Source: Pseudomonas sp. GGS8
Lineage (GTDB): Bacteria; Pseudomonadota; Gammaproteobacteria; Pseudomonadales; Pseudomonadaceae
DNA: 64,000 bases
Assembly (NCBI RefSeq): GCF_024168645.1
Contig: NZ_JALJWF010000001.1
Span: 5,335,501 to 5,399,500, forward strand
Reading direction: 5' to 3'
Shown: piece by piece, positions 27,889 through 49,378 of the stretch
Layout of the letters: the number at the start of each line of letters is the position of its first letter
Position numbering within the stretch: the first letter of the stretch is position 1
Notes under the pieces: generated by a model
The model's database searches: none
What the model was told of the DNA's origin: nothing
What the model saw: only the letters and a program-made list of their open reading frames with translations
Translations under genes and position numbers: made by a program

Positions 27889-27965
27889 CGCAAACCTCGT
27901 CAAAATAACCTCTAATGCCCTGAACTCTATCTGGGCTTTCTACCCAAGACCATCAGTGGCCATTA

Positions 27966-27989: not shown

Positions 27990-28156
27990 TCCGCAGCGAC
28001 GGCGACATCATCCAATGCCGTAAAAACCGAAGCAGCCTTCCAAGGAAAACTGAATTACCCTGTGCAGAGTACCAGTCTTTCCCCGTAAGATTCACGCCGG
28101 CCATTGTTCTCATATGGTCGCTCACGTCAAGTTTGCTGAATCTGCCAGGACTCCAG

Positions 28157-29071
28157 ATGAATCGTAATGACCTGCGTCGTGTCGACCTGAACCTGTTGAT
28201 CGTTTTCGAAACACTGATGCACGAACGCAGCGTGACCCGCGCTGCGGAGAAATTGTTCCTCGGCCAGCCGGCCATCAGTGCGGCGCTCTCGCGCCTGCGC
28301 GGGCTGTTCGATGACCCGCTGTTCGTGCGCACCGGTCGTAGCATGGAACCTTCCGCCCGGGCGGTAGAAATCTTCGCCCTGCTCTCGCCGGCCCTGGACT
28401 CGATCTCCACCGCGGTCAGTCGTGCGGCGGAATTCGATCCGGCGACCAGTACCGCGGTATTTCGCATCGGCCTGTCGGACGATGCCGAGTTCGCGTTGCT
28501 GCCAATGCTGCTCAAACGGCTGCGTGCCGAGGCACCGGGCATCGTGTTGGTGGTGCGTCGCGCCAATTACATCCTGATGCCGAACCTGTTGGCCTCGGGC
28601 GAAATTTCCATTGGTGTCAGCTACACCGCCGACCTTCCGGCCAACGCCAAGCGCAAAGTACTGCGCCGCAGCATGCCGAAACTGTTGCGGGCCGACACCG
28701 TGCCGGGGCCGTTGAGCCTGGATGATTTCTGCGCCCGCCCTCACGCACTGGTTTCGTTCGCGGGTGACCTGAGCGGCTTTATAGATGAAGAGCTGGAGAA
28801 ACTGGGGCGCAAACGGCACGTGGTGCTGGCGGTGCCGCAATTCAACGGGTTGAGCACACTGATCAGCGGCACCGATATCGTGGCCACCGTCCCGGATTAC
28901 ACCGCCGAAGCGTTGACCGCCGCCGGTGGTGTCCGGGCAGAGGATCCACCGTTGCCGGTGCGCAGCTTTGAATTGCACATGGCCTGGCGTGGGTCGCAGG
29001 ATAATGATCCGGGTGAGCGATGGTTAAGGTCGCGGATTCAGATGTTTTTCGGTGACCCAGATAGTCTGTAA
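28157..29071 (+). CDS. mexT: LysR-type activator MexT
   Basis: A 304-residue LysR regulator beginning MNRNDLRRVDLNLLIVFETL, the MexT-type N-terminus. The winged HTH is SVTRAAEKLFLGQPAISAALSR, and the effector domain follows (FRIGLSDDAEFALLP). The ATG at 28157 has AGGA six bases upstream. MexT activates mexEF-oprN and mexS in response to disulfide/electrophile stress in P. aeruginosa. Here its target operon starts 13.9 kb away, because two gene blocks lie between. The last codons (MFFGDPDSL, stop) are repeated twice downstream without a gene attached. Confidence 0.88.
   Translation: MNRNDLRRVDLNLLIVFETLMHERSVTRAAEKLFLGQPAISAALSRLRGLFDDPLFVRTGRSMEPSARAVEIFALLSPALDSISTAVSRAAEFDPATSTAVFRIGLSDDAEFALLPMLLKRLRAEAPGIVLVVRRANYILMPNLLASGEISIGVSYTADLPANAKRKVLRRSMPKLLRADTVPGPLSLDDFCARPHALVSFAGDLSGFIDEELEKLGRKRHVVLAVPQFNGLSTLISGTDIVATVPDYTAEALTAAGGVRAEDPPLPVRSFELHMAWRGSQDNDPGERWLRSRIQMFFGDPDSL
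29042..29071 (+). repeat. mexT 3'-end repeat, copy 1 (in mexT)
   Basis: The final ten codons of intact mexT, encoding MFFGDPDSL and TAA. This is the functional copy of a segment that recurs at 40542-40571 and 42616-42648. It marks the left boundary of the 11.5-kb inserted block. Confidence 0.8.
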
Positions 29072-29150
29072 CAGATCTCCAACAAACTTAAAAAACCTTG
29101 AACCCTCTTCATTTTTCAGGCGACGCCCACTAAAAGCAGCACGCTATGGC

Positions 29151-32100
29151 CTACGGCTGAAGAACGACGAGAGGACGGGTGGCGTCCTCTCCTCCAGGCT
29201 CGTGTGCTACGTCACTTTCGCTGTTCAGTTGACCCTTATTGTCAGGACGGATCTTGAACCAGATGGAGTACATCGCTGGCAGGAACACCAGCGTCATGAT
29301 GGTCCCGACGAATGTGCCTCCAATCAGCGTGTAGGCCAGCGTCCCCCAGAAGACGGAGTGTGTCAGCGGAATGAATGCCAGGATGGCCGCCAGCGCTGTC
29401 AGCAGTACCGGGCGGGCACGTTGGACCGTGGCTTCGACCACTGCGTGAAACGGATCCAGCCCTTCTTGCGCGTTGTGATGGATTTGCCCAATCAGAATCA
29501 GCGTATTGCGCATCAGAATGCCCGAAAGGGCGATTAGACCGACTAAGGCGTTGATACCAAACGGCTGCTGGAAGATAAGCAATGTCGGCACCACACCAAT
29601 CAATCCCAGAGGCGCGGTGAGGAACACCATGATCATCGCCGAGATCGAACGGACCTGCACAATGATGATCAGCAGCGTCATGGCAATCATGATCGGGAAC
29701 AGCGGCAACATCGCTTTACCGGCCTTGCCCGACTCCTCGATTGCACCCGCCTGCTCGATCCGGTACCCGTCAGGCAGCTTGTCGATGACCGGCTGCAGCT
29801 CTTTCATGATCACGCTCGAGACGTCCGGTGGCTGCATGCCTTCGGCAATGTCACCGCGCACGGTAATGGTCGGCGTGCGGTCACGACGTCGGAGGATCGG
29901 ATCCTCCATACGCACGTCCACTTCCCCTACCTGGGACAGCGGAATACGCTGGCCCGCCGTGCCCACCAGCGTAAAGCCTTCTATCCTGGCGGGATCGAGC
30001 CGGATATCACCCGCTGCGCGACCAACCACCTGCACCGAGCGAATGTCCTCACGAACCGCGGTGATCGGTACCCCCGCGAGGAGAAACTGCAGTTGCTGCG
30101 CGACTGAGTTTGACGTCAACCCCACCGCCTCCAAGCGATCCTGATCCAGAGCAAAATGCAGCGTCGGCGTCAGTGGCCCCCAGTCAGTGTTGACGGTCCT
30201 CATCATCGGGCTCGACTGCATCACGTCCTGTACCTGGCCCGCGATCTCGCGCAATTTTGACGGATCAGGCCCCATCACCCGATAGGCAACAGGGAACGGC
30301 GAATACGGACCAAACACAAGCTGAGTTACCCTGACACGCGCTTCTGGGGCAAGTCCCTCAGCAGCGGCCTCGCGGAGACGGAACTTGAGGGCCTCGCGCT
30401 CCTCCTGACTGTCCGTCAGCACCACAATCTTCGCGAAAGACGGATCGGGGAGTTCCGGCGCCATCGCCAGATAGAAGCGCGGCGCGCCTTGCCCGATATA
30501 GGCCGTGACGATTTTTGCCTCACCCTGCTTTTGCAGCCAGGCCTCTATCTTGGCGGTGGTGGCGCTGGTCTGCTCAATGGAGGTTCCATAAGGCATTTGT
30601 ACTTCAATCAATACCTCTGGACGGTCCGAGGTCGGGAAGAACTGTTTCTTGACCAGGCTCATGCCGAGAATCGCCACGACAAACGTAGCGATAACAGTAC
30701 CGGCCACCAGCCATTTGCGAGCGATGACACGCGTCAACACCTGGCGGAAGCGGTTGTAATTTCGGGTGTTGTAGATGGCCGCGTGACCACCCTCGACCTT
30801 CTTGATGTTCGGCAACATCTTCACACCCAGGTACGGGGTAAAGGCCACCGCAACCACCCAGGAGGCAATCAGGGCAATGCCCACGATCCAGAACATGTTG
30901 CTGGTGTACTCGCCGGCTGTCGACTGCGCGAAACCGTTGGGCATAAAGCCGATAGCCGTCACCAGCGTACCGGAAAGCATCGGTGCGGCGGTATGACTCC
31001 AGGCATACGCGGAAGCTTTGATGCGGTCGTAGCCCTCCTCCATTTTCACCACCATCATTTCGATGGCAATGATGGCGTCGTCCACCAACAGTCCGAGCGC
31101 CAGAATCAACGAGCCAAGGGTGATACGGTCAAAGTTCTTTCCAGTGGCCGCCATCACCACAAACACCACAGCCAACGTCAACGGCACAGCCGCAGCGACC
31201 ACAACGCCTACACGCCAGCCCATGCTGAGAAAGCAGACAAGCATCACCACAAGCAGCGCGACGAAAAATTTGACCATGAACTCGCCGACGGCCGAACTGA
31301 TATTTACAGATTGATCGGTGACCTTGGAGAGCGTCATGCCCAACGGCATGCCTTCATTGATCTTGACCGTCTCCGCGTCCAACGCCTTGCCCAGGTCAAG
31401 ACCGTTCCAGCCCTCACGCATCACGATCCCCAGCAACAAGGCCTCTTCACCGTTATTACGCACGAGAAAGGTTGCCGGATCTTCATAACCACGTTCGATC
31501 GTCGCCACGTCCGAGAGCTTCAGCGTCCGCCCCTGAACCGCAATGGGTGTGTCACGAATCTTCTGCACCTTGTCGAAGGCGCCATCCAGCCGGAGGAAGA
31601 TTTGTGGCCCGTCGCTTTCGATCGAACCGGCAGGCGTGAGCACGTTCTGATTGTTCAGTGCGGCAAAGATGTCCTGAGGCGATATGCCCAAGGTGGCGAG
31701 GCGATCATGAGAAAAGGAAACAAAGATACGCTCGGGTTGCTCCCCAATAATGTTGACCTTCTTCACGCCCGGCACATGCAACAGTTGTTGGCGCAACGAC
31801 TCTGCATCACGTACCAACAGTCGCTGCGGTTCGCCTTTGGCTTTCAGGGCGAAAAGCGCAAATGTCACATCCGAAAACTCGTCGTTGACCATTGGCCCGA
31901 TGACACCCGCCGGCAGCTTCCTGGCCTCATCGTCGAGCTTTTTACGCGCCTGATAGAACTCCTCCTGCACTTGCGCGGGCGGCGTGCTATCGCGCAGTGA
32001 CACCATCGTGAAAGCGAGGCCAGGACGGGTGTAGGTTTCCGTGCGGTCGTACCATTTCAGTTCTTGCAGGCGTTTTTCAAGTGGCTCTGCTACCTGATCC

Positions 32101-32294
32101 TGCATCTCCTGCGCCGTGGCGCCCGGCCACGCGGTAATGACCGTCAACTGTTTGACCGTAAACGGAGGATCCTCCGCGCGCCCCAGCTGGAAGAACGACA
32201 GGATGCCCGCAACGGCGATCAGGAAGATCAGAAACACCGTGATGGAGCGCTCGCGAACGGCGATCGCGGAAAGATTGAAGCGCCCCTCGCTCAT
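29151..32294 (-). CDS. RND efflux transporter, inner-membrane pump
   Basis: A 1047-residue resistance-nodulation-division permease. TM1 is near residue 20 (TVFLIFLIAVAGILSFF). The porter domain follows, and the TM4 proton-relay motif is GLLVDDAIIAIEMM. The second half repeats the fold, ending with TM12 before an acidic tail. Sequence style (RAEDPPFTVKQLTVITAWPG) resembles the VexF/TriC-like subgroup rather than AcrB/MexF. The start overlaps the adaptor's stop by four bases. It forms an operon with the adaptor, with the outer-membrane factor divergent and sharing operators. Confidence 0.93.
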   Translation of the reverse strand: MSEGRFNLSAIAVRERSITVFLIFLIAVAGILSFFQLGRAEDPPFTVKQLTVITAWPGATAQEMQDQVAEPLEKRLQELKWYDRTETYTRPGLAFTMVSLRDSTPPAQVQEEFYQARKKLDDEARKLPAGVIGPMVNDEFSDVTFALFALKAKGEPQRLLVRDAESLRQQLLHVPGVKKVNIIGEQPERIFVSFSHDRLATLGISPQDIFAALNNQNVLTPAGSIESDGPQIFLRLDGAFDKVQKIRDTPIAVQGRTLKLSDVATIERGYEDPATFLVRNNGEEALLLGIVMREGWNGLDLGKALDAETVKINEGMPLGMTLSKVTDQSVNISSAVGEFMVKFFVALLVVMLVCFLSMGWRVGVVVAAAVPLTLAVVFVVMAATGKNFDRITLGSLILALGLLVDDAIIAIEMMVVKMEEGYDRIKASAYAWSHTAAPMLSGTLVTAIGFMPNGFAQSTAGEYTSNMFWIVGIALIASWVVAVAFTPYLGVKMLPNIKKVEGGHAAIYNTRNYNRFRQVLTRVIARKWLVAGTVIATFVVAILGMSLVKKQFFPTSDRPEVLIEVQMPYGTSIEQTSATTAKIEAWLQKQGEAKIVTAYIGQGAPRFYLAMAPELPDPSFAKIVVLTDSQEEREALKFRLREAAAEGLAPEARVRVTQLVFGPYSPFPVAYRVMGPDPSKLREIAGQVQDVMQSSPMMRTVNTDWGPLTPTLHFALDQDRLEAVGLTSNSVAQQLQFLLAGVPITAVREDIRSVQVVGRAAGDIRLDPARIEGFTLVGTAGQRIPLSQVGEVDVRMEDPILRRRDRTPTITVRGDIAEGMQPPDVSSVIMKELQPVIDKLPDGYRIEQAGAIEESGKAGKAMLPLFPIMIAMTLLIIIVQVRSISAMIMVFLTAPLGLIGVVPTLLIFQQPFGINALVGLIALSGILMRNTLILIGQIHHNAQEGLDPFHAVVEATVQRARPVLLTALAAILAFIPLTHSVFWGTLAYTLIGGTFVGTIMTLVFLPAMYSIWFKIRPDNKGQLNSESDVAHEPGGEDATRPLVVLQP

Positions 32295-33400
32295 GGATGA
32301 CTCCCGGCAACCTTGACGTCACCCGGTTGAGCCAGTCTCACCTCCTCACCATCGCGCAGCAGATGCGCGCCTAACGCTACAATCTGCTCGCCGACCTTGA
32401 GGTCGCCTGCGACTCGCGCTGCGTCGTCGCTCAAGCCCAGGACCTGAACAGATCGCCAAGTCACTTTCGCCGGTGTACCGGCGATGACCCACACGCCAGT
32501 GCCTTGGCCTGGGTCATAAACGGCAGCGATCGGTACTTGCAGCCCCTGCCCTTGCGTGGTGCCTTCGGCGATCCGAAGCGTGACGGTCGAACCTAACGGC
32601 GCATTGGCCAGCGCGCCCTCAAGCACATACCGCGCCTCGAAGGTGCGCGTCATACGGTCGGCCGAGTCAGAAAGCAGCCTCAGCTTCGCTGTAACAGCAC
32701 CCGTGGTGTTGCCATAAAGCGTCGCCTGCGCAGTGGATCCTGCTGTGGGGCGTAGCGTCTCGGGCAAGTGCACGATGGCTTCGCGCTGCCCGGCCCGCGC
32801 CAGTCGAACCACGGGCTGTCCCGGGCTGACAACTTGTCCGGGCTCGGCGAGCGTCTCCACCACAACGCCGTCGGAATCCGCAAACAGCACCGCATAACCA
32901 GAAGCATTGCGAGCCACGTCAGCCTGCGCTTCAGCAGCGCTGAGCTGCGCTTTTGCGGTATCCGCTGCGGCTTTGATCTGGTCATAGGCCGATGCAGAAA
33001 TAGCACCTGCGGCGACCAGGTCGCGATATCGCGCCTCGTCATCTGCAGTCTGCTTGGCTCGGGCCCGAGCGGCGATGACTGACTCTTGCTGTGCTCGCGC
33101 CTGCAACCCCAGGTCGATTGGGTCAAGGCGCATGAGTGGCTGACCACGTTTAACGGTCTGACCGGTGTCAACCAGACGCTCAAGTATCTTGCCTGATACC
33201 CGGAAGCCCAGGTCGCCCTGGACGCGGGCAGCCACGACGCCAGTGAAAGAACGTGAGACGTCGGACGAAGCCTGAACCGCAGAGGACCTCACCAGAGGGG
33301 CTTGCGTGCGTGGATCTTCAACGGTGGATGAGTCACCACACGCCGTCAGGACGAGAGGCAACAAGCAAGCGGCAATGGGGACAGGTCGAAGCCGGCGCAT
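32291..33400 (-). CDS. RND periplasmic adaptor lipoprotein
   Basis: A 369-residue membrane-fusion protein. The N-terminus carries a lipobox (LPLVLTACGD) for lipid anchoring. The lipoyl half-motif GDLGFRVSGKILERLVDTGQ, an Ala/Gln-rich hairpin (about residues 95-150) and the beta-barrel region follow. The ATG has GGGAA upstream. It is the first gene of the pump operon. The promoter region shared with the outer-membrane factor contains two TetR-type operators. Confidence 0.92.
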   Translation of the reverse strand: MRRLRPVPIAACLLPLVLTACGDSSTVEDPRTQAPLVRSSAVQASSDVSRSFTGVVAARVQGDLGFRVSGKILERLVDTGQTVKRGQPLMRLDPIDLGLQARAQQESVIAARARAKQTADDEARYRDLVAAGAISASAYDQIKAAADTAKAQLSAAEAQADVARNASGYAVLFADSDGVVVETLAEPGQVVSPGQPVVRLARAGQREAIVHLPETLRPTAGSTAQATLYGNTTGAVTAKLRLLSDSADRMTRTFEARYVLEGALANAPLGSTVTLRIAEGTTQGQGLQVPIAAVYDPGQGTGVWVIAGTPAKVTWRSVQVLGLSDDAARVAGDLKVGEQIVALGAHLLRDGEEVRLAQPGDVKVAGSHP

Positions 33401-33446
33401 AGGTTCCCTTACTTAAAAAATAGGACAGGCACCACATTCTCAGTCT

Positions 33447-33472
33447 GGTGACCATTACTGTCAATGGTCACA
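33447..33472. promoter_or_regulatory. TetR-type operator O1 (pump operon)
   Basis: The inverted repeat GGTGACCA-N10-TGGTCACA, with one mismatch from TGTGACCA, lies 47 bp before the RND adaptor start. It belongs to a four-member set in this region with identical half-site spacing. Confidence 0.78.
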
Positions 33473-33568
33473 TATTATGAAATGCCAAGCCCCTCGGCCT
33501 AAGCACCAGAACCACCGCACATATTGAGCCAATTCCGAACATAGCTCAAAGAGCGTCGATTGACAGAA

Positions 33569-33594
33569 TGTGACCACAACGTAATATGGTCACA
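33569..33594. promoter_or_regulatory. TetR-type operator O2 (outer-membrane factor)
   Basis: The perfect inverted repeat TGTGACCA-N10-TGGTCACA lies 26 bp before the ATG of the outer-membrane factor gene. It is likely to overlap the promoter, as expected for repression. Confidence 0.82.
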
Positions 33595-33619
33595 AACATC
33601 CTCGATTGAAGGTACCTCA

Positions 33620-35080
33620 ATGCCTCCCCTCCGCCCCATTGCTCTCTTGGTGAGTGCCAGCTTGATGACAGGTTGCGCGGTCGGTCCGGACTATCACCGT
33701 CCGGACGTCCCACTTTCGAACCATTACTTGGGGCAGTCTGCTGTCGAACAGAGGCCTGGGGCGACGCCGGCCAGTCTTGTCGCCTGGTGGGAAGGCTTTG
33801 GTGATCCACTGTTAGCCGACTTCGTCTCCAAGGCACTTGAGCAGAACCTGGATCTGGCGCAGGCGTCGGCGCGAGTCACGCAGGCACGGGCAGGACTGGG
33901 CGCTGCAAATGCCGCTTTACTGCCCTCAGGGAACATCAGCGGACAGGCCGCGCGCTCCTACCAGTCAATCGAGACGCCGCTCGGCCAGGTGTTGAACTCA
34001 ACGCCTGGCTATGATCGGTACGGAAGCTCCTACGAGGCCAACCTCGATGCCAGCTGGGAGGTAGATGTCTTTGGCGGATTGCGCCGCGGACGCGAGGCTG
34101 CTCTGGCCGAGTACCAGGCTTCCCAGGCCGGCGTCGCTGCCACACGATTGGCCGTCGCTGCACAGACCGCCGATATCTACATCACTATCCGCGGACTGCA
34201 GACCCGGCTAGACATTGCGAATCGGCAAGTCAAAACGCAGCAAGAGGTGCTAAAGAAAGTCCAATTACTCTACGGCAAGGGCCTCGCTGCCAACTATCAG
34301 GTTCACCAGACTGAGGGAGCGCTATCGCAGGTCCAAGCGACAGTGCCAGTCCTGCAGACCGGCCTGGATGCTGCCATGAATGCGCTGGATGTAATGCTCG
34401 GCACGCCGCCAGGCACTCACCGCACACAACTGGCAAGTGCGGGGAGCATTCCTGTAGCGCCGCAGTTAAAGGCGACGGGAACGCCGGCCGATTTGCTGCG
34501 CCGCAGGCCAGACCTCCTTGTGGCTGAGCGCCGTCTTGCGGCCTCAAACGCACGCATCGGGGAGGCGATTGCTGAGTACTACCCGAAATTATCCCTTAGC
34601 GCATTACTGGGCAGTGCCACGGCTGTATCCGCAGGCAACCTTTTTACTGGCGGCGCCAGCCAGTCGGCGGGCGTATTGGGACTGCGCTGGAGACTCTTCG
34701 ACTTCGGTCGCATAAACGCCCAAATCGACCAAGCCAAGGGACAGGAGGCCGAAGCCTTGGCCGCTTACCGCCAGTCCGTCTTGCGCGCCACCAAGGATGT
34801 CGAGAACGCTTTCTCCGCACTGGTGAATCGGGAAGCCCAGGCAACCACCCTCACCGGGGGTGAGGCGTCTCTGACACAGGCTCGCCAATCGTCGTTCATT
34901 GCCTACGAGAAAGGCACGGCCAGCCTGATCGACGTCCTGCATGCCGACGAGACGATGCTGCAGGCTTCCGATGCTCGGGCACAAGCACGAACGGAATCGG
35001 CACGGGCAGCGGTCGCGGCATTCAAGGCGCTCGGTGGTGGCTGGCAGCCTCCCGAAGCCCAGCCCGTGGCGACCCGATGA
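33620..35080 (+). CDS. Outer-membrane efflux lipoprotein (NodT/OprM family)
   Basis: A 486-residue TolC-like channel. The lipobox is SLMTGCAVGPDY, typical of OprM/NodT proteins. Two OEP repeats follow, with RRRPDLLVAERRLAASNARIG in the second half and the usual ending SFIAYEKGTASLIDVLHADE then AFKALGGGW. The ATG at 33620 has AAGG nine bases upstream. It is divergent from the RND adaptor-pump genes and completes that tripartite pump. An SDR gene follows on the same strand. Confidence 0.93.
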   Translation: MPPLRPIALLVSASLMTGCAVGPDYHRPDVPLSNHYLGQSAVEQRPGATPASLVAWWEGFGDPLLADFVSKALEQNLDLAQASARVTQARAGLGAANAALLPSGNISGQAARSYQSIETPLGQVLNSTPGYDRYGSSYEANLDASWEVDVFGGLRRGREAALAEYQASQAGVAATRLAVAAQTADIYITIRGLQTRLDIANRQVKTQQEVLKKVQLLYGKGLAANYQVHQTEGALSQVQATVPVLQTGLDAAMNALDVMLGTPPGTHRTQLASAGSIPVAPQLKATGTPADLLRRRPDLLVAERRLAASNARIGEAIAEYYPKLSLSALLGSATAVSAGNLFTGGASQSAGVLGLRWRLFDFGRINAQIDQAKGQEAEALAAYRQSVLRATKDVENAFSALVNREAQATTLTGGEASLTQARQSSFIAYEKGTASLIDVLHADETMLQASDARAQARTESARAAVAAFKALGGGWQPPEAQPVATR

Positions 35081-35212
35081 CTTGAAACGTGACGTGGCAC
35101 TTAATGCACCCCCTCCTCTTTCAGCTACTACCCAATCCGAGAGCGGGTTCGCTCACCGACTGACGCGGTCAGCGGCCAATTGCTCAATAGAAACCAACCG
35201 GAGAACAACGAA

Positions 35213-35998
35213 ATGAAATCGAACGAGAATTCCTGGGTGCTCATCACCGGTGCATCAAGCGGATTTGGCGAGGAGTTTGCCCGGCAATACGCAGCGCAGG
35301 GGAAATCTCTCGTCCTGGTAGCACGGAGACTGAGTAAACTCGAAGCGCTATCGGTGGAGTTGCACGAACGTTTCGGTGTTGATGTGATCGTCGAACAAGT
35401 AGACCTGTCCTCGATCCCGGCGATCATCGAACTGCACGAGCGGCTGAGCGAGCGCAATATAGTGATCGATGTACTCATCAACAATGCGGGTCATGGATTG
35501 CAGGGGCCTTTCCTGGATCAACCTCTGGATGAGTCCCTGACCATGATTGATTTGGATATCGCCAGCCTGACAGCCCTGACACGCCTTTTCGCGGCCGACA
35601 TGCGAGCCCGCAAACGTGGCCACATCCTGATGGTCGCCAGCTTGCTGTCCTTCCAGGGCGTGAAGAATTTCGCCGTTTACTCTGCCGCGAAAGCCTATGT
35701 TCTTCGCTTCTCTGATGCGCTTCATCGTGAACTGAAAAATGACGGCGTCGTCGTTACCGCACTTTGCCCTGGGATGTCAGATACCGGATTTGCAGAAAGC
35801 GCCAAACAACGGATCACACCGGCCTTAAAAATGGTGATGATGCAGCCTCAACCCGTCGTGCGTGCAGGAATCCGTGCGCTGCAAGCCGGACGCATGAGCG
35901 TGGTGCCGGGTTTTGGCAACAAGGCCATCACCGTCTTGACGTGGGCCACTCCACGTCGGTTTCATCAGAGCTTGATGGCGCAGGTGATGGGAGTCTGA
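35213..35998 (+). CDS. Short-chain dehydrogenase/reductase
   Basis: A 261-residue classical SDR. The cofactor loop is TGASSGFGEEFA, NNAGHG follows, and the catalytic Ser and Tyr-X3-Lys are in VASLLSFQ and YSAAKAY. An Arg after the glycine loop (ARRLSK) suggests NADP(H). The ATG at 35213 has GGAG ten bases upstream; the gene lies 132 bp after the outer-membrane factor on the same strand. Being co-regulated with an efflux system, it may modify a hydrophobic substrate; the substrate is unknown. Confidence 0.88.
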   Translation: MKSNENSWVLITGASSGFGEEFARQYAAQGKSLVLVARRLSKLEALSVELHERFGVDVIVEQVDLSSIPAIIELHERLSERNIVIDVLINNAGHGLQGPFLDQPLDESLTMIDLDIASLTALTRLFAADMRARKRGHILMVASLLSFQGVKNFAVYSAAKAYVLRFSDALHRELKNDGVVVTALCPGMSDTGFAESAKQRITPALKMVMMQPQPVVRAGIRALQAGRMSVVPGFGNKAITVLTWATPRRFHQSLMAQVMGV

Positions 35999-36004
35999 GG
36001 GGGC

Positions 36005-36037
36005 GAAAAAGAGGCCTTTTACCTCAGGGGAAAGGCC
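36005..36037 (-). terminator. Terminator of FadL-type gene
   Basis: A 7-bp stem (GGCCTTT/AAAGGCC) with an 11-base loop is followed on the minus strand by TCTTTTT. It lies about 75 bp past the stop of the convergent FadL-type gene. Confidence 0.65.
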
Positions 36038-36109
36038 CGAGATGTGCTCTTAACGGTCGGGAGGCAACGCCTGCTCCCGACAGGACATTCATCGTGTAAC
36101 AGCACTCAA

Positions 36110-37369
36110 TTAGAAGCGGTAACTAGCAGACGTACCGAGCCCGCTCGCACTGTTCTTATATCTGGCACTGTATGCACCTCTATTCGCAGAGGCATCGTTG
36201 ATCTGCACGCTCTCCTCCCATAGGTAGGAATAAGCAACATCGATCGTGACATTGTCCGCCGGAGTCCAGCCAGCACCGAAGCTGATAACCTTCCGGTCAC
36301 CCGTAGGAATACGTGGTCCACGGTTGGTGTTGTTGGTGGGCGACTGGTCGACCGAGAAGCCTGCGCGAAGTACCCATTGGCTGTTCAATTTGTACGCCGT
36401 GCCGATAGCGTGAGCCCACGTATCATGCCAGTTCTGTTCTTCGATAATAGTGCCCAGCGAGCCGTTCAACAAAGGGGGTAAACCAGTGTTCTCGATGGTT
36501 AATTCTTTAAAGCGACTCCAGCGTGTCCAGGTACTCCCCAAATATAGAGTCCAGTCATTACTGAGCTGATGAGTCACCGAGAAGTCCACAGACTCTGGGG
36601 TATCCACATCCAGCGAAGCGTCATAACTGCGGCCGCTGACCCCCAACACGCTAAAGATGCCGTCGGTGACTTTGGTCTTGGCGTCCAAGTGGTAACTGAC
36701 CTTGGAATGGTAGGTCATTCCCAGGCGGGTTCGGTCTGTAGCCTGCACCAGGATACCGGCGTTGAAACCGAGGGCCGTGTCGTCGCCCGTGCTTTTAAGT
36801 TTTCCGTCATTGCGACCTGGGCTAAGTGGATTGGGCACCATCCCGGACAGCTCACCGGTGATGCGGTTGATGGTCGGACCGAACCCGATCGAAACTTTGT
36901 CGTTAAAGGCATAGCTGATGGTGGGCTGGAACGTAAGGGTCGTGACCTCACTTTTGTTGGCGTAGTAACGCCCGGCAAAACCGCTGCCATAGTCAGTCAT
37001 CAGACCGAAAGGTACATAAAACCCTACACCGAACGCCCAATGCTCATCGATGGGTTTGACGTAGTAACCCATAGGCACTGTAGTGGTTGGCACCATGTCA
37101 CCGTCTTCCTGGCCCCCGAATGTACTGCGGGTTTGGCTTATGTCGGACTTAGCGAAAAGAGTCGCAGCCCCCACGCTGACCTGCTCCCTTTTCAAGCGAG
37201 ACATGCCCGCAGGATTACCGAAGACCGTGCTCGCATCTTCAGCGGAGGAAGAGCGACCGGCAAACCCGGATCCCATCCCACTGATGCTTTGTTCGTTGAG
37301 AGCGAAACCACTTGCAAACACATTTGAAGATGCGAGCACGACTGCGAGGCCAAATGGGCTCTTGAGCAC
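36110..37369 (-). CDS. OmpP1/FadL family outer-membrane transporter
   Basis: A 419-residue beta-barrel for hydrophobic compounds. The signal peptide ends SNVFA, and the mature N-terminus SGFALNEQSISGMGSGFAGR is the FadL hatch region with the NPAG motif (FGNPAGMSRL). The C-terminus ends in SASYRF, an aromatic barrel signal. The start appears to be GTG at 37369. An upstream ATG in another frame reads only ATGAAAAAATAG, so the start is somewhat uncertain. Relatives such as TodX carry aromatics and alkanes. The operator at 37445 places it in the same TetR regulon as the pump. Confidence 0.88.
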   Translation of the reverse strand: MLKSPFGLAVVLASSNVFASGFALNEQSISGMGSGFAGRSSSAEDASTVFGNPAGMSRLKREQVSVGAATLFAKSDISQTRSTFGGQEDGDMVPTTTVPMGYYVKPIDEHWAFGVGFYVPFGLMTDYGSGFAGRYYANKSEVTTLTFQPTISYAFNDKVSIGFGPTINRITGELSGMVPNPLSPGRNDGKLKSTGDDTALGFNAGILVQATDRTRLGMTYHSKVSYHLDAKTKVTDGIFSVLGVSGRSYDASLDVDTPESVDFSVTHQLSNDWTLYLGSTWTRWSRFKELTIENTGLPPLLNGSLGTIIEEQNWHDTWAHAIGTAYKLNSQWVLRAGFSVDQSPTNNTNRGPRIPTGDRKVISFGAGWTPADNVTIDVAYSYLWEESVQINDASANRGAYSARYKNSASGLGTSASYRF

Positions 37370-37444
37370 TATTTTTTCATTATTTGAACTCTATGGGTAT
37401 CACTGAGATGAAGCAGTGGAAGTAACGGACCACATGCTTATTCA

Positions 37445-37470
37445 TGTGACCAATTCCGTCAATGGTCACA
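37445..37470. promoter_or_regulatory. TetR-type operator O3 (FadL gene)
   Basis: Perfect half-sites TGTGACCA-N10-TGGTCACA lie 75 bp before the FadL-type start and downstream of tetR. The right half and its spacing are the same as in O1 and O2. Confidence 0.8.
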
Positions 37471-37475
37471 TAATG

Positions 37476-37513
37476 AATAAATGAAATGCCCTTCGACGAC
37501 TGGAAGAAGGGCA
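37476..37513 (-). terminator. Terminator-like hairpin after tetR
   Basis: An 8-bp stem (TGCCCTTC/GAAGGGCA) is followed on the minus strand by ATTTCATTTATTC. It lies about 65 bp after the tetR stop and would separate tetR from the FadL gene on the same strand. Confidence 0.55.
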
Positions 37514-37578
37514 AAGTGAAAAGCCGTTTTGGTGATGTGTCGCTTACACAGGCATGACGTAAAACCGTTAGCCGAAGG

Positions 37579-38205
37579 TCAAGGCATGAGGCTACGCAAA
37601 ATGAGGTTGGAGGTGAGCGTGGGCGCCTCCTCGACATAATCGAGGTTGTACTGCAGGAGTAAAGGATTGACGAAAGGCCGCAAAGCCAGATGTATCGCTT
37701 CTACTGTCTCGTCCAGGGGAGTCTTGCGTTCAAATTCGCCGATCTCTCGCCCCTCCCGCACGATTTGCAACACGAAGCGCTTGATCTGCGCGTCATAAGC
37801 CTGCGTACTGGGCCAGCTTTCCGACGCCGCGAATGCTGCAATGTCATAGAGTTTTCGGTCGTTAAAGAACAGATTCACACCTGTGGCGATCACAGTTTTG
37901 ACCAATCGTCGAAAGCGCTCCGTCGGCGACAGGTCTTCTACATTGATCGCCTGCTCCACAGCCGCGACGATTTCTGCTAGACAATTTGCGCAGATGGCTT
38001 CACCGATCGCCTGCTTGGAATCAAAAAATTTGTAGATATAGGCCTTGGAAAACCCGATGGCCCTAGCCAGGTCGGAAACCGTGGTTTTGGCGTAGCCGTA
38101 TTGACTGAAGTGTTCGTTGGCCGCCGCGACAATCTGGTCTCGAATGTCGTGATCGGCTGGGCCACGGGGGCTGGGCGAAGCTGAAGATATTGATGGCTGA
38201 TTCAT
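37579..38205 (-). CDS. TetR family repressor of the local efflux/uptake regulon
   Basis: A 208-residue TetR regulator. The N-terminal HTH is TTVSDLARAIGFSKAYIYKFF. The C-terminal ligand domain (about residues 70-208) is variable, as usual. A TGTGACCA-type operator lies 38 bp upstream of its start. Three more precede the pump operon, outer-membrane factor and FadL-type gene, so it most likely represses all of these and itself. Its ligand is not predictable, but target genes point to a lipophilic compound. Confidence 0.88.
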   Translation of the reverse strand: MNQPSISSASPSPRGPADHDIRDQIVAAANEHFSQYGYAKTTVSDLARAIGFSKAYIYKFFDSKQAIGEAICANCLAEIVAAVEQAINVEDLSPTERFRRLVKTVIATGVNLFFNDRKLYDIAAFAASESWPSTQAYDAQIKRFVLQIVREGREIGEFERKTPLDETVEAIHLALRPFVNPLLLQYNLDYVEEAPTLTSNLILRSLMP

Positions 38206-38612
38206 GGGAACAGCTTACTCATCCTATCGAGGACTGACAACTTGTGACCAAAAAGATATACAGTCACAAAACAGCAGCTATGGGCCGAGTGGCGTCCGAG
38301 GTACTAAACCGGCAACTCAGCCCTGATCGACATGAGTTCCGTCATACGACAGAGCCTCCCCGCGCCATGAAGAATCTAACGCTACATTACCTAGCGACAC
38401 TGTGTAGCCTGCGCGTAAATGCCCGGGCCGCACTGCAACGCAATTCTGTTTGCGCGGATGTTGAGTGGCCTTGGCATGTTCGCTCAATTGAAACAGTCAT
38501 GGCGCACTCAACAGCAGATTATGATCTCCACCTCGCAGCATCCGAGGCCAGACCTCTGATTCCTTCAGACTAAAACCTTTGTGGCATCACACTCTCCACT
38601 CCGCAATAAGGC
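38206..38612. other. 407-bp intergenic region, no convincing gene
   Basis: Apart from operator O4 near tetR, I see nothing functional. A 109-codon plus-strand frame begins at 38244, but it starts inside the operator, has no Shine-Dalgarno and resembles no family. The stretch may be decayed accessory DNA. Confidence 0.4.
38243..38268. promoter_or_regulatory. TetR-type operator O4 (tetR autoregulation)
   Basis: TGTGACCA-N10-CAGTCACA lies 38 bp before the tetR start. It has two mismatches in the second half-site, so binding would be weaker than at O1-O3, a common feature of autoregulatory sites. Confidence 0.68.
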
Positions 38613-39731
38613 TCAAACCAATTCGGCTAAAGATGCCGGGTTGAAGCCCTTCATATCTGCATAATCGCCATTTTCCACTTTAGCGGCCCAATCCTTGTCA
38701 CTCAGCAGAACACGCCCTACTGCGATCAGATCAAACTCTTCGCGCTCCATACGCTCAACGAGCCGATCCAGACTCGCAGGGGTTGATCCCTTGCCGGCGA
38801 ATGCGTGAGTAACATCATTATCCAGCCCGACCGAACCGACGCTAATGGTTGTGGCTCCAGTGACTTTCTTCGCCCAGCCCGCGCAGTTCAGCCCGTTCTC
38901 ACCATCAATTTCGGGAAATTCAGGGTCCCAGAAGCGTCGCTGCGAGCAATGCAGAACATCAACACCCGCCTCAACCAACGGTAGCAGCCAGTCTTCCATT
39001 AATGCCGGGGTCTCGGCGAGGCGCACTCCAAAGTCCTGCTGCTTCCATTGACTAACGCGCATGATGATAGGGAATTCGGGGCCGACCGCATGACGCACTG
39101 CAGACACGATCTCAGCGGCAAAACGCGAGCGCTCTTTGATCGTCGGTCCGCCATAACGATCGGTGCGCTGATTGGTACCCGCCCAGAAGAACTGATCGAT
39201 CAAATAACCATGAGCCCCATGGATCTCAACGGTGTCGAAACCCAGGCGTTTGGCATCCGCCGCTGCCTTGGCAAAAGCAGCAACTGTGTCTGCAATATCC
39301 TCTTCGCTCATTGCCACACCGCGCGGGTCGTTTGGCGAATCGAGGCCAGATGGGCTTTCAACCGGCGCATCAGGCTCCCAGCCGCTGACGTCACGCACTG
39401 CACCGGTGTGCCAGAGTTGCGGCCCCATACGGCCACCAGCATTGTGAACAGAATCGATCACGTTCTTCCATCCAGCTAGCGCTGCTTCACCGTGAAAAAA
39501 AGGGATGCTGGAACCGTTACGTGAAGCGGGACGATCGATGACGGTCCCTTCTGACAAAATCAATCCGACCCGACCCTCAGCCCGCCGCCGGTAGTATGCA
39601 GCGCTCCCTTCACCGGGGATGCCCTCTGGCGAAAATTGCCTCGTCATTGGCGACATGACAATCCGGTTTTTCAGTTCAAGCGATCGGATGGAAAAGGGAC
39701 GAAATAAAATGCTGGTATCTAGGTTTGACAT
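38613..39731 (-). CDS. Old yellow enzyme family NADH:flavin oxidoreductase
   Basis: A 372-residue FMN-dependent ene-reductase-like TIM barrel. The N-terminus ELKNRIVMSPMTRQF is the FMN-binding region. The EIHGAHGYLIDQFF motif carries the active-site His and the Asn-equivalent position. AVGRVLLSDKDW fits the phosphate site. The ATG at 39731 has GGAG upstream; the longer open frame adds 20 unrelated residues. It is divergent from an HxlR regulator, a common pairing for electrophile-responsive OYE genes. The substrate is unknown. Confidence 0.9.
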   Translation of the reverse strand: MSNLDTSILFRPFSIRSLELKNRIVMSPMTRQFSPEGIPGEGSAAYYRRRAEGRVGLILSEGTVIDRPASRNGSSIPFFHGEAALAGWKNVIDSVHNAGGRMGPQLWHTGAVRDVSGWEPDAPVESPSGLDSPNDPRGVAMSEEDIADTVAAFAKAAADAKRLGFDTVEIHGAHGYLIDQFFWAGTNQRTDRYGGPTIKERSRFAAEIVSAVRHAVGPEFPIIMRVSQWKQQDFGVRLAETPALMEDWLLPLVEAGVDVLHCSQRRFWDPEFPEIDGENGLNCAGWAKKVTGATTISVGSVGLDNDVTHAFAGKGSTPASLDRLVERMEREEFDLIAVGRVLLSDKDWAAKVENGDYADMKGFNPASLAELV

Positions 39732-39797
39732 TGGATGGACTCCATTTGCTTCTGGAAGCCATATAAGTATATTTTGTAAACCAAATGTCAATTAGGC

Positions 39798-39815
39798 ACC
39801 TAGAGTCGCCTAGGT
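39798..39815. promoter_or_regulatory. Candidate HxlR operator between OYE and hxlR genes
   Basis: The perfect inverted repeat ACCTAG-N6-CTAGGT, nested within TAGGC...GCCTA, lies in the 102-bp divergent promoter, 18 bp before the hxlR ATG. Position and symmetry fit a dimeric winged-helix regulator controlling both genes. Confidence 0.55.
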
Positions 39816-39833
39816 ATACATGAGGAAACTTCG

Positions 39834-40208
39834 ATGCTGGATTTAAAGCCGCAATGTTTTTCGTCGGAGTGCCCAAGCCGGGCGCTGTTTGACCAAATCG
39901 CAGATAAGTGGTCGATGATGGTTCTGGCGGTGCTTGATGACGGGCCGCATCGTTTTAATGCCATCAGGCGCCGCCTGGAGGGCGTAACTCAGAAGGCACT
40001 TACACAGTGCCTGCGGCGGCTGGAACGAAATGGTCTCGTCTCGCGCCAAGTCATTTCGTTCTCGCCTGTGGCAGTGCAGTATGAGATCACCCCACTTGGT
40101 CGAACACTGCAGCAGCCATTTCGCGAATTGCATAAATGGACGCTCGACAAATTGCCTGAGGTTGAAGCGGCCCGGTTGAAGTTTGACGAGGCCGCGGAGG
40201 TAAGCTGA
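39834..40208 (+). CDS. HxlR family transcriptional regulator
   Basis: A 124-residue winged-helix regulator of the HxlR/YodB type. The DKWSMMVLAVLDDGPHRFNA and VTQKALTQCLRRLERNGLV stretches are the family signature. Cys8 and Cys13 near the N-terminus (PQCFSSECPSR) include the position used by electrophile-sensing relatives. It is divergent from the OYE gene, which is likely its target, with a palindromic candidate operator in between. Confidence 0.88.
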   Translation: MLDLKPQCFSSECPSRALFDQIADKWSMMVLAVLDDGPHRFNAIRRRLEGVTQKALTQCLRRLERNGLVSRQVISFSPVAVQYEITPLGRTLQQPFRELHKWTLDKLPEVEAARLKFDEAAEVS

Positions 40209-40613
40209 CGGTGTGATTCTTTTTATCGACTCGCCGCTATTGCCATCCTGCAACGCATTACTTGATAGATTGCTGGCGGTATCCCTAAACCTACCAACGC
40301 CCACATTAAGTGCCTAATTGACTCTAGGTTTATCTGCAACCGTCTGATGAAGTTATTGCTGGCTCAGACGATCGCAGAGGCAACGCTACCAGGTATTGGG
40401 CGAGCGGAATCCGAATCCATCTTGGTCTCTGTTAGAAATCGCCATTCGCGATCGCTCGCAAACTTGATGCAACAGGGGGCAAAATTGGGAGCATATTTGA
40501 ACTTTTTCTGCCTAAAAATATTGTTCTAGAGCCTAGTCAAAATGTTTTTTGGCGACCCTGAGAGCCTTTGAATCAAAGCGGCGCAGAGCGCCTAATCGCT
40601 GGCGACCGGGCGT
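40209..40613. other. Intergenic region holding mexT tail copy 2
   Basis: No gene is convincing in this stretch. Its main content is the isolated mexT 3'-end copy and its arm at 40500-40571. The rest is of mixed composition and unexplained. Confidence 0.5.
40500..40571 (+). repeat. mexT 3'-end repeat, copy 2, with 45-nt arm
   Basis: Bases 40542-40571 read MFFGDPESL and TGA in frame, but the frame is closed by TAG 15 bases upstream, so no gene belongs to it. The 45 nt from 40500 through the ATG match the same stretch before copy 3 at 36 positions, including CTAGAGCC and AGTCAAAATG. It forms the boundary between the 11.5-kb and 2.1-kb blocks. Confidence 0.75.
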
Positions 40614-40793
40614 TCACAACGGCCCACATAAAGAGCCGCAGGCACTGCTGCTGAGCCAAATGGGCAGCGACCAACAGGGTATACGCCACCCCTCAAGGTC
40701 GTATGACAGCGCCTGCCACACCAACCACATGCAGGCAGAGGTGATGTCATAGGTGGCAATGTCGTCCAGGCCACACAGGATCACAGTCACCAT
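40614..40793 (-). pseudogene. Possible broken ORF downstream of EamA gene
   Basis: A minus-strand frame starting MVTVILCGLDDIATYDITSA has a strong GGGAG site close before its ATG and follows the EamA gene by 53 bp, as an operon partner would. After about 35 residues the sequence loses normal protein character (CWSLPIWLSSSACGS), and another frame stays open to the mexT tail copy. A frameshifted remnant is the best reading; the family is not recognised. Confidence 0.3.
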
Positions 40794-40846
40794 CAACTCC
40801 CTTGATTTAACGATGATTCAGATGGCGTGTGGTGTCGCGCCAGGCC

Positions 40847-41740
40847 CTACGTCACTTCCTGACGCGAGGTGCGGCCCGGCGACCAACCGAAGTTCATGCC
40901 CGCAGCCGCCAGCAGGATGGCGCTCGCGCCAATCACTTGCAGGACGCCGAGCGGGTGGGCGAAGGCAACCCAGTCGACCAGGATGGCGACGATCGGATAG
41001 ATGAACGACAGTGCCCCGACCAGCGCCGTGGGGATTTTCTGGATGGCGCTGTACAGCAGGGTCGACATGAGCCCGGTATGGACCACGCCGATAATGATCA
41101 GGTAAGTCCAGGCGCCCTCGACCGTATCGACCCTGGTGAAGTCCACGAACGGTGCCAGGATCAGCACGCCAACCACCATCTGGATCAGCACGATCAGGTG
41201 CACGGGTAAGTCCTTGAGGCGCTTGGTGATCGCCGCCGCCACAGCGTAGAAGAAGGCTGAAGCCAGGGCCAGGCAGACGCCCAGCAGGTAGTCGGCGCCG
41301 GTGGCCTGCCCGCTGCCTTTGGCGGACACGATCAGCATCAGACCGGCGAAGGCCAACAGCAACCAGCCGACCTTGGCGGCGCTGAGGCGCTCGGCGAAGA
41401 ACAGCACGCCTAGACCGACCAGCATGAACGGCTGAACGTGGTAGACCACCGTCGCAATGGCGATAGAGGAATGTTCGTAGGCACTGAATAACAGCACCCA
41501 GTTTAGAATCAGCGCCATCCCGCCCAGGCACACCAGAATGAACTGCCGGGCGTTGATCCGGGAGCGGCCCAGCACCCCGAGCACCAGGCACGCAACCAGC
41601 ATTGCCATGGCGCCGAACAAGCAACGCCAGAACACCACGGCCTCCGGGCTCTGCCCCGACATGATGACGAACCAGCCCACCGTGCCGGAGATCACCATGG
41701 CCGAAATCATTTCGAGCGTCCCACGGGTTTGCGACTTCAT
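40847..41740 (-). CDS. EamA/DMT superfamily transporter
   Basis: A 297-residue inner-membrane protein with ten predicted helices formed by two EamA repeats (first around FVIMSGQSPEAVVFWRCLFG, second around LLGVCLALASAFFYAVAAAI). Such proteins usually export amino acids or small metabolites. GTG at 41743 directly precedes the ATG, so the start may be one codon earlier. It is divergent from an XRE-cupin regulator, a usual pairing for metabolite exporters. Both lie between mexT tail copies 2 and 3. Confidence 0.88.
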   Translation of the reverse strand: MKSQTRGTLEMISAMVISGTVGWFVIMSGQSPEAVVFWRCLFGAMAMLVACLVLGVLGRSRINARQFILVCLGGMALILNWVLLFSAYEHSSIAIATVVYHVQPFMLVGLGVLFFAERLSAAKVGWLLLAFAGLMLIVSAKGSGQATGADYLLGVCLALASAFFYAVAAAITKRLKDLPVHLIVLIQMVVGVLILAPFVDFTRVDTVEGAWTYLIIIGVVHTGLMSTLLYSAIQKIPTALVGALSFIYPIVAILVDWVAFAHPLGVLQVIGASAILLAAAGMNFGWSPGRTSRQEVT

Positions 41741-41895
41741 CACTCACTGCTTCCTTGCTGTCGGCATTGCCGTAACCTAAGCCGCCATTCGCGGGGGTTG
41801 GCTCGGCAAAACGAAGTTTATAATGAACTAATGACTGCTATACTGAACAAGGCATCTGAGAGCGTCAACCCAATTCAGGATGATTTGCAAAACAA

Positions 41896-42477
41896 ATGAA
41901 CGACATAACGAACGCGCTACCGAGAAATAACCCGAGCCGAATCGATCTGCTGGCCCTTTCAATCAAACGCGAGCGCCTGGCCGCCGGGCTTTCCTTGACC
42001 GAGCTGGCGAAGCGCGCCGGGGTGGCGAAGTCGACCTTGTCTCAATTGGAGTCGGGAATTGGTAACCCCAGCATCGAAACCTTGTGGTCGCTGGCGATGG
42101 CAATGGGCTTGCAAGTCACCCGGTTCTTCGAGCACCCCCAGCAGACCCTGCGGGTGATTCGCGCCAACGAGGGCATGACCACCTATGCCGAGACTGCCAA
42201 TTATGCAGCGACACTGCTTGCCGATTGTCCGGCGGGAGTACAACGCGATATCTATCGGCTCAAAGTGCAGCCCGGCGAAGTTCGGCTGTCTCAGCCCCAC
42301 CCACTGGGCACCGTAGAGCACGTGGTGCTGTGCAGTGGCAGTGCCCATATCGGCCCGGCGACTGGACCTGTATTGCTGAACGCTGGCGACTACATCAGCT
42401 ACTTGGCGAATGTGCCGCACGTGTTCGAAGCACTCGAGGCGGACACCACTGCGGTGATGGTGATAGAGCATTCCTGA
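41896..42477 (+). CDS. XRE-type regulator with C-terminal cupin
   Basis: A 193-residue regulator. The N-terminal HTH_3 is LAAGLSLTELAKRAGVAKSTLS, and ESGIGNPSIETLWSLA follows. The C-terminal cupin (about residues 110-190) has the loop HPLGTVEHVVLCSGSA and a later H in VPHVFEALE. Its probable target is the divergent EamA gene, with the ligand bound in the cupin. The spacing region 41741-41895 is AT-rich, but I could not single out an operator. Confidence 0.87.
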   Translation: MNDITNALPRNNPSRIDLLALSIKRERLAAGLSLTELAKRAGVAKSTLSQLESGIGNPSIETLWSLAMAMGLQVTRFFEHPQQTLRVIRANEGMTTYAETANYAATLLADCPAGVQRDIYRLKVQPGEVRLSQPHPLGTVEHVVLCSGSAHIGPATGPVLLNAGDYISYLANVPHVFEALEADTTAVMVIEHS

Positions 42478-42573
42478 GGTGGGGTGGAGAACCCTAATGG
42501 AATTCTGCCAGCACTCGCCATTTTCGTTCGCTCGTGTATCACGAGCGAACGAGGGTAAAAGTGGGGCATTGCT

Positions 42574-42648
42574 AAGTTTTTCGGCCTTAAAACACCGCCC
42601 TAGAGCCAAGTCAAAATGTTCTTCGGGGATCCGGATAGCCTGGCTTGA
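42574..42648 (+). repeat. mexT 3'-end repeat, copy 3, with 45-nt arm
   Basis: Bases 42616-42648 read MFFGDPDSLA and TGA in frame; an in-frame TAG lies 15 bases before the ATG, so no gene belongs to it. The arm from 42574 resembles the arm of copy 2 (36 of 45 bases through the ATG). It lies 322 bp before mexE, exactly where the end of mexT would be if mexT were adjacent to mexE. Confidence 0.77.
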
Positions 42649-42677
42649 TCCGGATTTTGTGTTGAGGCTGATGGCCT

Positions 42678-42754
42678 CTTCGCGGGCAAGCCTCGCTCCT
42701 ACAAGGGATTTGTGTTTTGTTGGTCCAGTGTAGGAGCGAGGCTTGCCCGCGAAG
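42678..42754. repeat. Inverted REP pair upstream of mexE
   Basis: CTTCGCGGGCAAGCCTCGCT at 42678 and its inverse ending CTTGCCCGCGAAG at 42754 flank a 24-base spacer. This is the second REP class in the window (GCGGGCAAGCCTCGC type), repeated beside the IS element at 48927-50262. Confidence 0.82.
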
Positions 42755-42808
42755 ACTGCGACACGGCTTCAAGCCAGACCTTTGCACTCCCCGCAACACA
42801 CAATTGTC

Positions 42809-42832
42809 ATCATTTCATTTGATAGCCCGCTA
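42809..42832 (+). promoter_or_regulatory. Candidate distal MexT box upstream of mexE
   Basis: The site reads ATCA-N5-TTTGAT-N4-CGCTA against the consensus ATCA-N5-GTCGAT-N4-ACYAT. The ATCA half and central GAT agree; the right half is poor. It lies 62 bp before a better site. Found by eye only. Confidence 0.35.
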
Positions 42833-42870
42833 ACGAAAGGTGCATGCTAGAGGGCTTGCTCCTGGCTTAT

Positions 42871-42894
42871 ATCATTCTGAATGATAGTTACCTT
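42871..42894 (+). promoter_or_regulatory. Candidate proximal MexT box upstream of mexE
   Basis: The site reads ATCA-N5-AATGAT-N4-ACCTT against ATCA-N5-GTCGAT-N4-ACYAT. ATCA, GAT and ACC-T agree with correct spacing. It ends 75 bp before the mexE ATG. Two boxes in tandem would fit LysR activation of mexEF-oprN, and both lie on the mexE side of the inserted DNA. Confidence 0.5.
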
Positions 42895-42969
42895 CGCCTC
42901 ATTCGATTCGTGCGATACAACCCTGCCAAGCATCATCCGTCCCATCTCAATACATTGGCGGATGCATCC

Positions 42970-49004: not shown

Positions 49005-49075
49005 TGAACTGGCCTAATGATTTTGGACACTTCAATCGGGCGCTATGATGGCGCCCAAATCTGAGGTGTTTGGAT

Positions 49076-49378
49076 ATGCGTAAATCTTATTCCAGTGAAT
49101 TCAAGCTCAAGGCCGCCAGCATGGTGCTGGACGAGGGCCAGTCAGTTCCCGAAGTCTGTGCCAGTCTGGATATTGGCCCTACCGCCTTGCGCCGTTGGGT
49201 CGACCAGGTTCGCAAAGAGCGCTTGGGTTCGACCCCGGAGGGGGCTAAGGCAATTACCGCCGATCAGCGAGAGATTCAGCAGCTCAAAGCGTTGCTCAGG
49301 CAAAAAGACCTGGACATTGAAATCCTAAAAAAGGCCAGTGCTCTCCTGCTTTTGGACTCCAAAGATCATTCTCGTTGA
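49076..49378 (+). CDS. IS3-family transposase OrfA
   Basis: A 100-residue DNA-binding subunit. The HTH_Tnp_1 domain is YSSEFKLKAASMVLDEGQSV with DIGPTALRRWV, and a leucine-zipper-like helix follows (IQQLKALLRQKDLDIEIL). The ATG at 49076 has GAGG nine bases upstream. The heptamer A AAA AAG at 49327-49333 lies in this frame and would move some ribosomes by -1 into the OrfB frame, with no stop between, giving the OrfAB transposase. Confidence 0.92.
   Translation: MRKSYSSEFKLKAASMVLDEGQSVPEVCASLDIGPTALRRWVDQVRKERLGSTPEGAKAITADQREIQQLKALLRQKDLDIEILKKASALLLLDSKDHSR

Follow-up and report, generated by a model that had tools for sequence, protein, structure and literature searches.

The window analysed here is a 64,000-nucleotide stretch of the Pseudomonas sp. 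GGS8 genome (contig NZ_JALJWF010000001.1) in which the regulator gene mexT is separated from the efflux operon mexEF-oprN by an insert of ten cargo genes. On its outer side mexT is preceded by a minus-strand gene (26866..27903) with a sub-cut-off match to quinone oxidoreductases, called mexS by position in an earlier note on this DNA. mexT itself (28133..29071, plus strand) is also named by position; it encodes HTH_1 and LysR_substrate domains, and its NCBIfam LysR match is below cut-off. At the far side of the insert, mexE (42970..44223, plus strand) scores over its NCBIfam cut-off. mexS, mexT and mexEF-oprN are all open reading frames (ORFs), intact as previously described.

The insert is punctuated by copies of the end of mexT. 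The 26-bp sequence ATGTTYTTYGGNGAYCCNGANAGYYT occurs three times on the plus strand with no mismatches: within mexT (29042..29067), between two groups of cargo genes (40542..40567) and before mexE (42616..42641). Matches with up to three mismatches are expected 0.00 times by chance (100 shuffles), and the whole 6.72-Mb genome contains the sequence, at up to two mismatches, only at 29042, 40542 and 42616. The earlier note had recognized these three direct-orientation mexT tails and read each as MFFGDPDSL; that ending holds for mexT, while the tail at 40542 encodes MFFGDPESL and that at 42616 MFFGDPDSLA. Measured core to core, successive copies lie 11,500 and 2,074 bp apart, the latter replacing a previous value of 2,077 bp.

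The larger interval, the outer cassette, begins with a resistance-nodulation-division (RND) efflux permease (29151..32294, minus strand) and a periplasmic adaptor (32291..33400, minus), followed by an outer-membrane efflux channel (33560..35080, plus), all assigned by domain scans. Pfam matches identify a short-chain dehydrogenase (35180..35998, plus), a FadL-type outer-membrane transporter (36110..37369, minus), a TetR regulator (37579..38205, minus), an old yellow enzyme-type oxidoreductase (38613..39791, minus) and an HxlR regulator (39834..40208, plus). The smaller interval, the older cassette in the interpretation developed below, carries an EamA transporter (40847..41743, minus; Pfam) and an XRE-cupin regulator (41896..42477, plus), the latter supported by helix-turn-helix matches, with cupin being the earlier note's naming. 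The XRE ORF also has a weak, sub-cut-off TrbA match that rests on the helix-turn-helix. Domain scans of the insert ORFs thus return only transporters, enzymes and regulators. No recombinase or transposase domain appears in a Pfam scan of mexT and nine insert ORFs or in an NCBIfam scan of the XRE ORF; none of the 15 PF00589 tyrosine recombinase matches in the genome lies inside the window, and the window has no tRNA. In these scans the insert shows no integrase, transposase or tRNA gene, in line with the earlier note.

Comparison with unoccupied sites in relatives defines the boundaries of the insert. Genomes G046 and G005 have a single tail, 329 and 318 bp before mexE, and the third tail of the window lies 328 bp before mexE. 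Aligned with G046, the window's mexT matches at 85.8% over 176 bp, stopping at the final base of the core; with G005 it matches at 83.6% over 177 bp and runs one base past the core. Window DNA from 42616 then aligns from the first core base into mexE, at 83.9% over 422 bp for G046 and 83.3% over 425 bp for G005, and the longest alignment of the 40542 copy with either genome is at most 11 bp. Because the match stops at the first copy and resumes at the third, the insert and core repeat are bounded almost to the base. The core at 42616, identical in its 26 bases to the G005 empty site, is the displaced native mexT 3' end, followed by native mexT-mexE intergenic DNA (42642..42969) colinear with the empty sites. 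The ending MFFGDPDSLA at both empty sites is that of the third tail; the present mexT ends MFFGDPDSL.

The feature that proved key, overlooked in the earlier note, lies directly upstream of both orphan tails. About 42 bp there (by repeat comparison) or about 75 bp (by profile) are common to the two and absent from mexT. This right end contains two GGGGGCA-like repeats, and ...CTAGAGCCnAGTCAAA in it abuts the core. An nhmmer profile of this type A right end, built from 32 distinct right ends at other loci, finds only two segments of the window below E 5: 40468-40541 (E 3.4e-17), the attR arm of the outer cassette, and 42545-42615 (E 5.7e-15), that of the older cassette, both on the plus strand. 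The best match in 20 shuffled windows has an E value of 3.4. The opposite, left end was sought with a 38-position matrix derived from 39 sequences that follow a tail at integrase loci. Position 29068 ranks first of 127,924 with a score of 4.9, which hints at a decayed left end of the integrase-carrying class at 29068..29105 (plus strand), with the left end tentatively more decayed than the right ends.

An integrase associated with the site is found in relatives. G139 carries, directly behind mexT, an integrase gene that is broken into two frames. Its open piece was searched against 298 genus genomes, and because up to six candidates were scored per genome, absence from this search is weak evidence. 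At least 32 matches have at least 54% identity, and for 30 of these 32 a same-strand tail is located 8-410 bp upstream; the other two are a match in G247 and a 54% match in G282. A full-length copy has Arm-DNA-bind_3, Phage_int_M and Phage_integrase domains, a make-up that we take to be P4-like. Among named genomes (43 loci), the tail starts 37-200 bp before the matched integrase in 28 of 32 Pseudomonas loci, including P. frederiksbergensis, P. viridiflava, P. baetica, P. grimontii, P. asturiensis, P. syringae GR12-2, P. salomonii, P. marginalis, P. gessardii, P. rhodesiae and others; one of the 28, in P. haemolytica, has a short integrase remnant after an orphan-type tail. None of the 11 more distant relatives (30-35% identity) has a tail upstream. 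Plasmids yielded one relative, at 31% identity, and phages 167 records, all below 60%, the best-ranked at 31%.

The distal tails of 13 integrase-positive genomes are preceded by type A ends in eight (G022, G016, G175, G119, G171, G160, G282 and G139) and by variants in three (G051, G289 and G170). The position of the crossover was examined in 32 attL sites chosen by left-end sequence, probably including the window's own, and 34 type A attR sites including the window's two. In the attL cores, positions 10-20 are 91-100% conserved, positions 6 and 9 reach 72%, and positions 21, 24 and 25 are variable again. In the attR sites, every position but one of the 12 immediately upstream of the core shows 74-100% conservation, and the core is variable past about position 11. 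This pattern suggests that strand exchange occurs within roughly the first 11 core bases and that the element supplies the remaining mexT codons and the stop.

Use of the site is widespread in the genus. Among 199 genomes, including that of the window, 196 have at least one mexT tail and 53 at least two, on a single strand in 48. A panel of 80 genomes contains 61 in which tail and mexE are collinear; the tally excludes ten 3-mismatch rows that differed from mexE in contig or strand or lay on its wrong side. Seventeen of the 61 have an empty site, with 171-459 bp between tail and mexE, so the occupied interval is not common to all relatives. A single tail lies 0.5-5 kb from mexE in 12 genomes and 5-100 kb from it in 19, and several collinear tails, out to 217 kb, occur in 13. 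Some occupants look conjugative. In six of the 13 integrase-positive genomes (G016, G160, G175, G051, G289 and G170), the DNA from the mexT tail to another tail encodes a MobH relaxase (PF07514) together with a TraC_PFL_4706-type ATPase, over tail-to-tail spans of about 112-272 kb; neither a MobH relaxase nor a conjugation ATPase is found between the tails of the other seven. Because relaxase and ATPase lie between the tails, so that integrase, relaxase and conjugation ATPase are all enclosed by two att cores, the elements of these six genomes are likely integrative and conjugative elements (ICEs).

A second class of element uses the same core. Behind many tails stands another conserved left end, TTAGGCGTCGTCGGGCAGG..., which is accompanied by hxs genes in four loci (L038, L050, L052 and L053), and a different right end, GGGTACATCTGGGGGTACA..., precedes six tails. 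This second class may rely on the integrase described above.

Cargo similarity connects the window with several of these elements. The RND permease, adaptor, outer-membrane channel, short-chain dehydrogenase, FadL and TetR block recurs in a tail-bounded cassette of G006 at 80-90% protein identity, the permease at 90%. The old yellow enzyme and HxlR genes lie behind mexT and an integrase remnant in P. farris, where the former is 97% identical, and in strain FEN; P. farris has no second tail before mexE. The EamA/XRE-cupin pair adjoins orphan tails in G139 and G237. In G139 this cassette is preceded by a tail and by a 23.5-kb element that carries meta-cleavage genes (catechol 2,3-dioxygenase, 4-hydroxy-2-oxovalerate aldolase and acetaldehyde dehydrogenase); in G237 it extends to the native junction, with an integrase remnant and other DNA in front of it. 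Once the EamA cassette and the mexT/integrase end are set aside, the inserts of G237 and G139 have no stretch of at least 80 bp in common at E 1e-5, and the window's outer cassette matches neither genome beyond the right-end arms. The EamA/XRE cassette thus follows three distinct inserts, which is what serial integration at mexT would be expected to give, with G237 the weakest of the three cases.

Elsewhere the site carries a wider range of genes. The earlier note proposed that mexT ends are a hotspot for efflux and regulatory cassettes; the hotspot is borne out, and the description of its cargo is too narrow, as other mexT ends carry defence systems, catabolic genes, radical-SAM peptide systems and, in all likelihood, entire ICEs. 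The suggested search of mexT-mexE intervals for other cargo and for tails at its boundaries turned up both in relatives. His-Xaa-Ser genes include HxsA, B and C in G168 and HxsD in G149, and relatives of all three genes of G168 are present in G092 and G144. The cargo of G104 includes a YhaV toxin family protein, and a similar one was seen by eye in G002. The 13.8-kb cassette of G002, bounded by mexT tails (L151:694-14087), has Wadjet and Gabija genes as its large ORFs, with GajA extending over two ORFs.

Three repeat features of the window touch the cargo or its flank. The inverted repeat GTGACCATTnnnGTCAATGGTCACATA has two copies, at 33448-33474, between the starts of the adaptor and outer-membrane channel genes, and at 37446-37472, upstream of fadL (2 matches against 0.00 expected); it is likely a shared operator, perhaps for the cassette's TetR. 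A pair of 26-nt inverted repeats at 39777-39802 and 40307-40332, 85% complementary, flanks the HxlR gene and could possibly be HxlR operators or a cassette-internal end. The native mexT-mexE spacer contains a 32-nt inverted repeat with TAGGAGCGAGGCTTGCCCGCGAAGA at 42677-42755, presumably REP-like (repetitive extragenic palindromic) and partly different in both empty-site genomes. Just downstream of oprN, two ORFs at 49070-50211 encode an IS3-type transposase, the second scoring over the IS3 cut-off.

Taken together, these comparisons make it very probable that the mexT 3' end is an attB site for Pseudomonas islands, among them likely ICEs, whose integrase lies just behind mexT, and that the window holds serially stacked, integrase-less remnants of such islands. 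The boundaries, the core repeat, the element-type right ends, the integrase beside mexT in relatives and the empty sites can all be read from the genome sequences. Serial integration at the mexT 3' end, as the earlier note proposed, is supported by the empty sites and neighbouring integrases, and it is further backed by the type A right ends and by the EamA/XRE cassette lying behind different DNA elsewhere. We infer that this integrase performs the reaction, that events followed the order outlined next, and that an incoming relative could still mobilize the remnants. Crossover would take place near the start of the 26-bp core. mexT would stay intact because the element supplies its last codons and stop, and the old gene end would be shifted downstream, behind the right arm of the element. 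The window would record at least two integrations, the first by an element now reduced to EamA/XRE-cupin and the second, at the restored mexT end, by an old yellow enzyme-HxlR element, which the RND/short-chain dehydrogenase/FadL/TetR block would have joined at some point. Neither element would have kept its integrase, leaving cis-mobilizable-type remnants.

Several observations weigh against this interpretation. A tblastn search of the interval for an integrase remnant found none (best E 0.91), and the window's genome has only 27-34% relatives of the integrase, none near the window, among all 23 candidates scored. The left-end score at 29068 is below those of 37 of the 39 training members, and the full left-end nhmmer profile reports nothing there at E<=10. 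Four of the 32 named Pseudomonas integrase loci have no tail, and the distal tails of two of the 13 integrase-positive genomes (G121 and G259) have no recognisable right end. The EamA cassette of G139 has its own right arm and no core after it, and in G237 no tail separates the younger DNA from the EamA cassette. Nineteen of the 80 panel genomes could not be assessed and were set aside. Many cassettes appear to have no mover, since nine of ten multi-tail genomes have no Phage_integrase domain between the tails, and no recombinase for the second left-end class or right-end type was found at the same core.

The alternative that fares best, though improbable, is that the outer cassette arrived with the second element class by means of another recombinase. 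The same RND-TetR block in G006 does sit behind the second left end. The window's left end nevertheless fits the integrase class best, with a score of 4.9 where second-class left ends score -27 to -52, and the right ends of the window belong to type A. In P. farris and strain FEN, moreover, the old yellow enzyme-HxlR genes follow mexT and a remnant of an integrase. A still less probable origin is homologous recombination between the mexT-mexE regions of different strains, with no integrase involved and the tails as passengers. Such exchange of flanks could spread similar cassettes among several species, as seen, and would suit a window genome without the integrase. However, it creates neither a core repeat, nor element-type ends, nor an integrase beside mexT; it may well be how cassettes spread secondarily and how the RND block came to be joined to the old yellow enzyme-HxlR genes. 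An origin of the orphan tails as 3' ends left by duplicated or decayed mexT paralogues, a case the earlier note had raised, is rejected with little doubt on boundary, repeat and right-end comparisons: the tails do encode the MexT C-terminus with mostly synonymous differences, but mexT similarity is limited to the tail, the DNA upstream of both is an element end common to 32 other right ends rather than mexT, and the last tail aligns colinearly with the native mexT-mexE junction.

Other mobile structures were considered and set aside. For an integron cassette array, the window has no PF00589 match that could represent an intI-type integrase; attC sites were not searched for. For a transposon, the scanned insert ORFs have no transposase domain and none of six inverted-repeat pairs joins both ends of the insert. 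The insert is not itself taken to be an ICE, as its ORFs are transporters, enzymes and regulators, with no conjugation genes in the scans.

Integration at the mexT end has several consequences. It accounts for the adjacency of mexT and mexE in some species and their separation by up to 217 kb in others, and it brings to light an integrase family, and a likely ICE family, that have a defined target next to a much-studied efflux operon. The 26-bp core and 75-bp right end together form a searchable marker that finds island ends even where the integrase is missing, and the site is easily sampled for new cargo, including phage-defence systems. A broader view is that the mexT 3' end is a dedicated, genus-wide dock where members of a MobH ICE family stack with cassettes of a second class, which lack an integrase and have conserved ends of their own, and where the two exchange defence, efflux and catabolic modules, the second class being moved by the integrase of a resident mexT ICE, such that the regulator of a core multidrug pump doubles as a dock for defence and resistance. 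We hold this view to be slightly less probable than its negation.

MobH ICEs of Pseudomonas include the PAPI-1, PsICE and ICEclc kinds, and tRNA-Gly is one of their known sites. The six genomes described above likewise have a MobH relaxase domain and a TraC_PFL_4706-type ATPase, here between mexT tails. In the available portions of two reports, the known sites of such ICEs are tRNA-Lys genes (PMC10945833, PMC9495688, the ICEs of the latter sitting at tRNA-Lys), whereas the elements of the relatives sit at the mexT 3' end. mexT and mexEF-oprN have been placed on predicted P. aeruginosa ICEs (PMC10734551), in accessible text of which the terms 'insertion site' and 'integration site' are absent. 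Within the accessible parts of the open-access literature searched, including PMC10945833, PMC5909648, PMC10734551, PMC5704250, PMC9495688 and PMC6945700, mexT is not named as an attachment site, and no description of the site, the element family or its spread over Pseudomonas was found; the TIGER/Islander resource may already hold such islands.

The structure itself is of a known kind, that of tandem cis-mobilizable element (CIME)-type remnants at the 3' end of a gene. CIMEs are defined, in the part of the source available, as att-flanked cassettes without integration and transfer genes (PMC5704250). In the window both attL and attR are retained, as indicated by the cores at 29042, 40542 and 42616, the empty-site boundaries and the right arms, with a weak left arm, and integration and transfer genes are lost, judging from the ten insert ORFs, the PF00589 scan and the tblastn search. 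ICE-like elements compatible with the site are present in relatives. The window cassettes thus look like cis-mobilizable remnants stacked by serial integration, resembling the CIMEs and tandem accretion related to ICESt1, as far as these are covered in that source, in being att-flanked, free of integration and transfer genes and arranged in tandem at a gene 3' end; they differ in that the site is mexT in Pseudomonas and in that their cis-mobilization is a prediction. Islands at the 3' ends of the protein genes guaA, rplL and rpmE are tabulated in the same source (PMC5704250, as available), and there too a tyrosine integrase is found at a gene 3' end. What sets mexT apart from those targets is that it encodes a LysR regulator next to an efflux operon and that its core is a 26-bp coding stretch in which variation is mostly synonymous.

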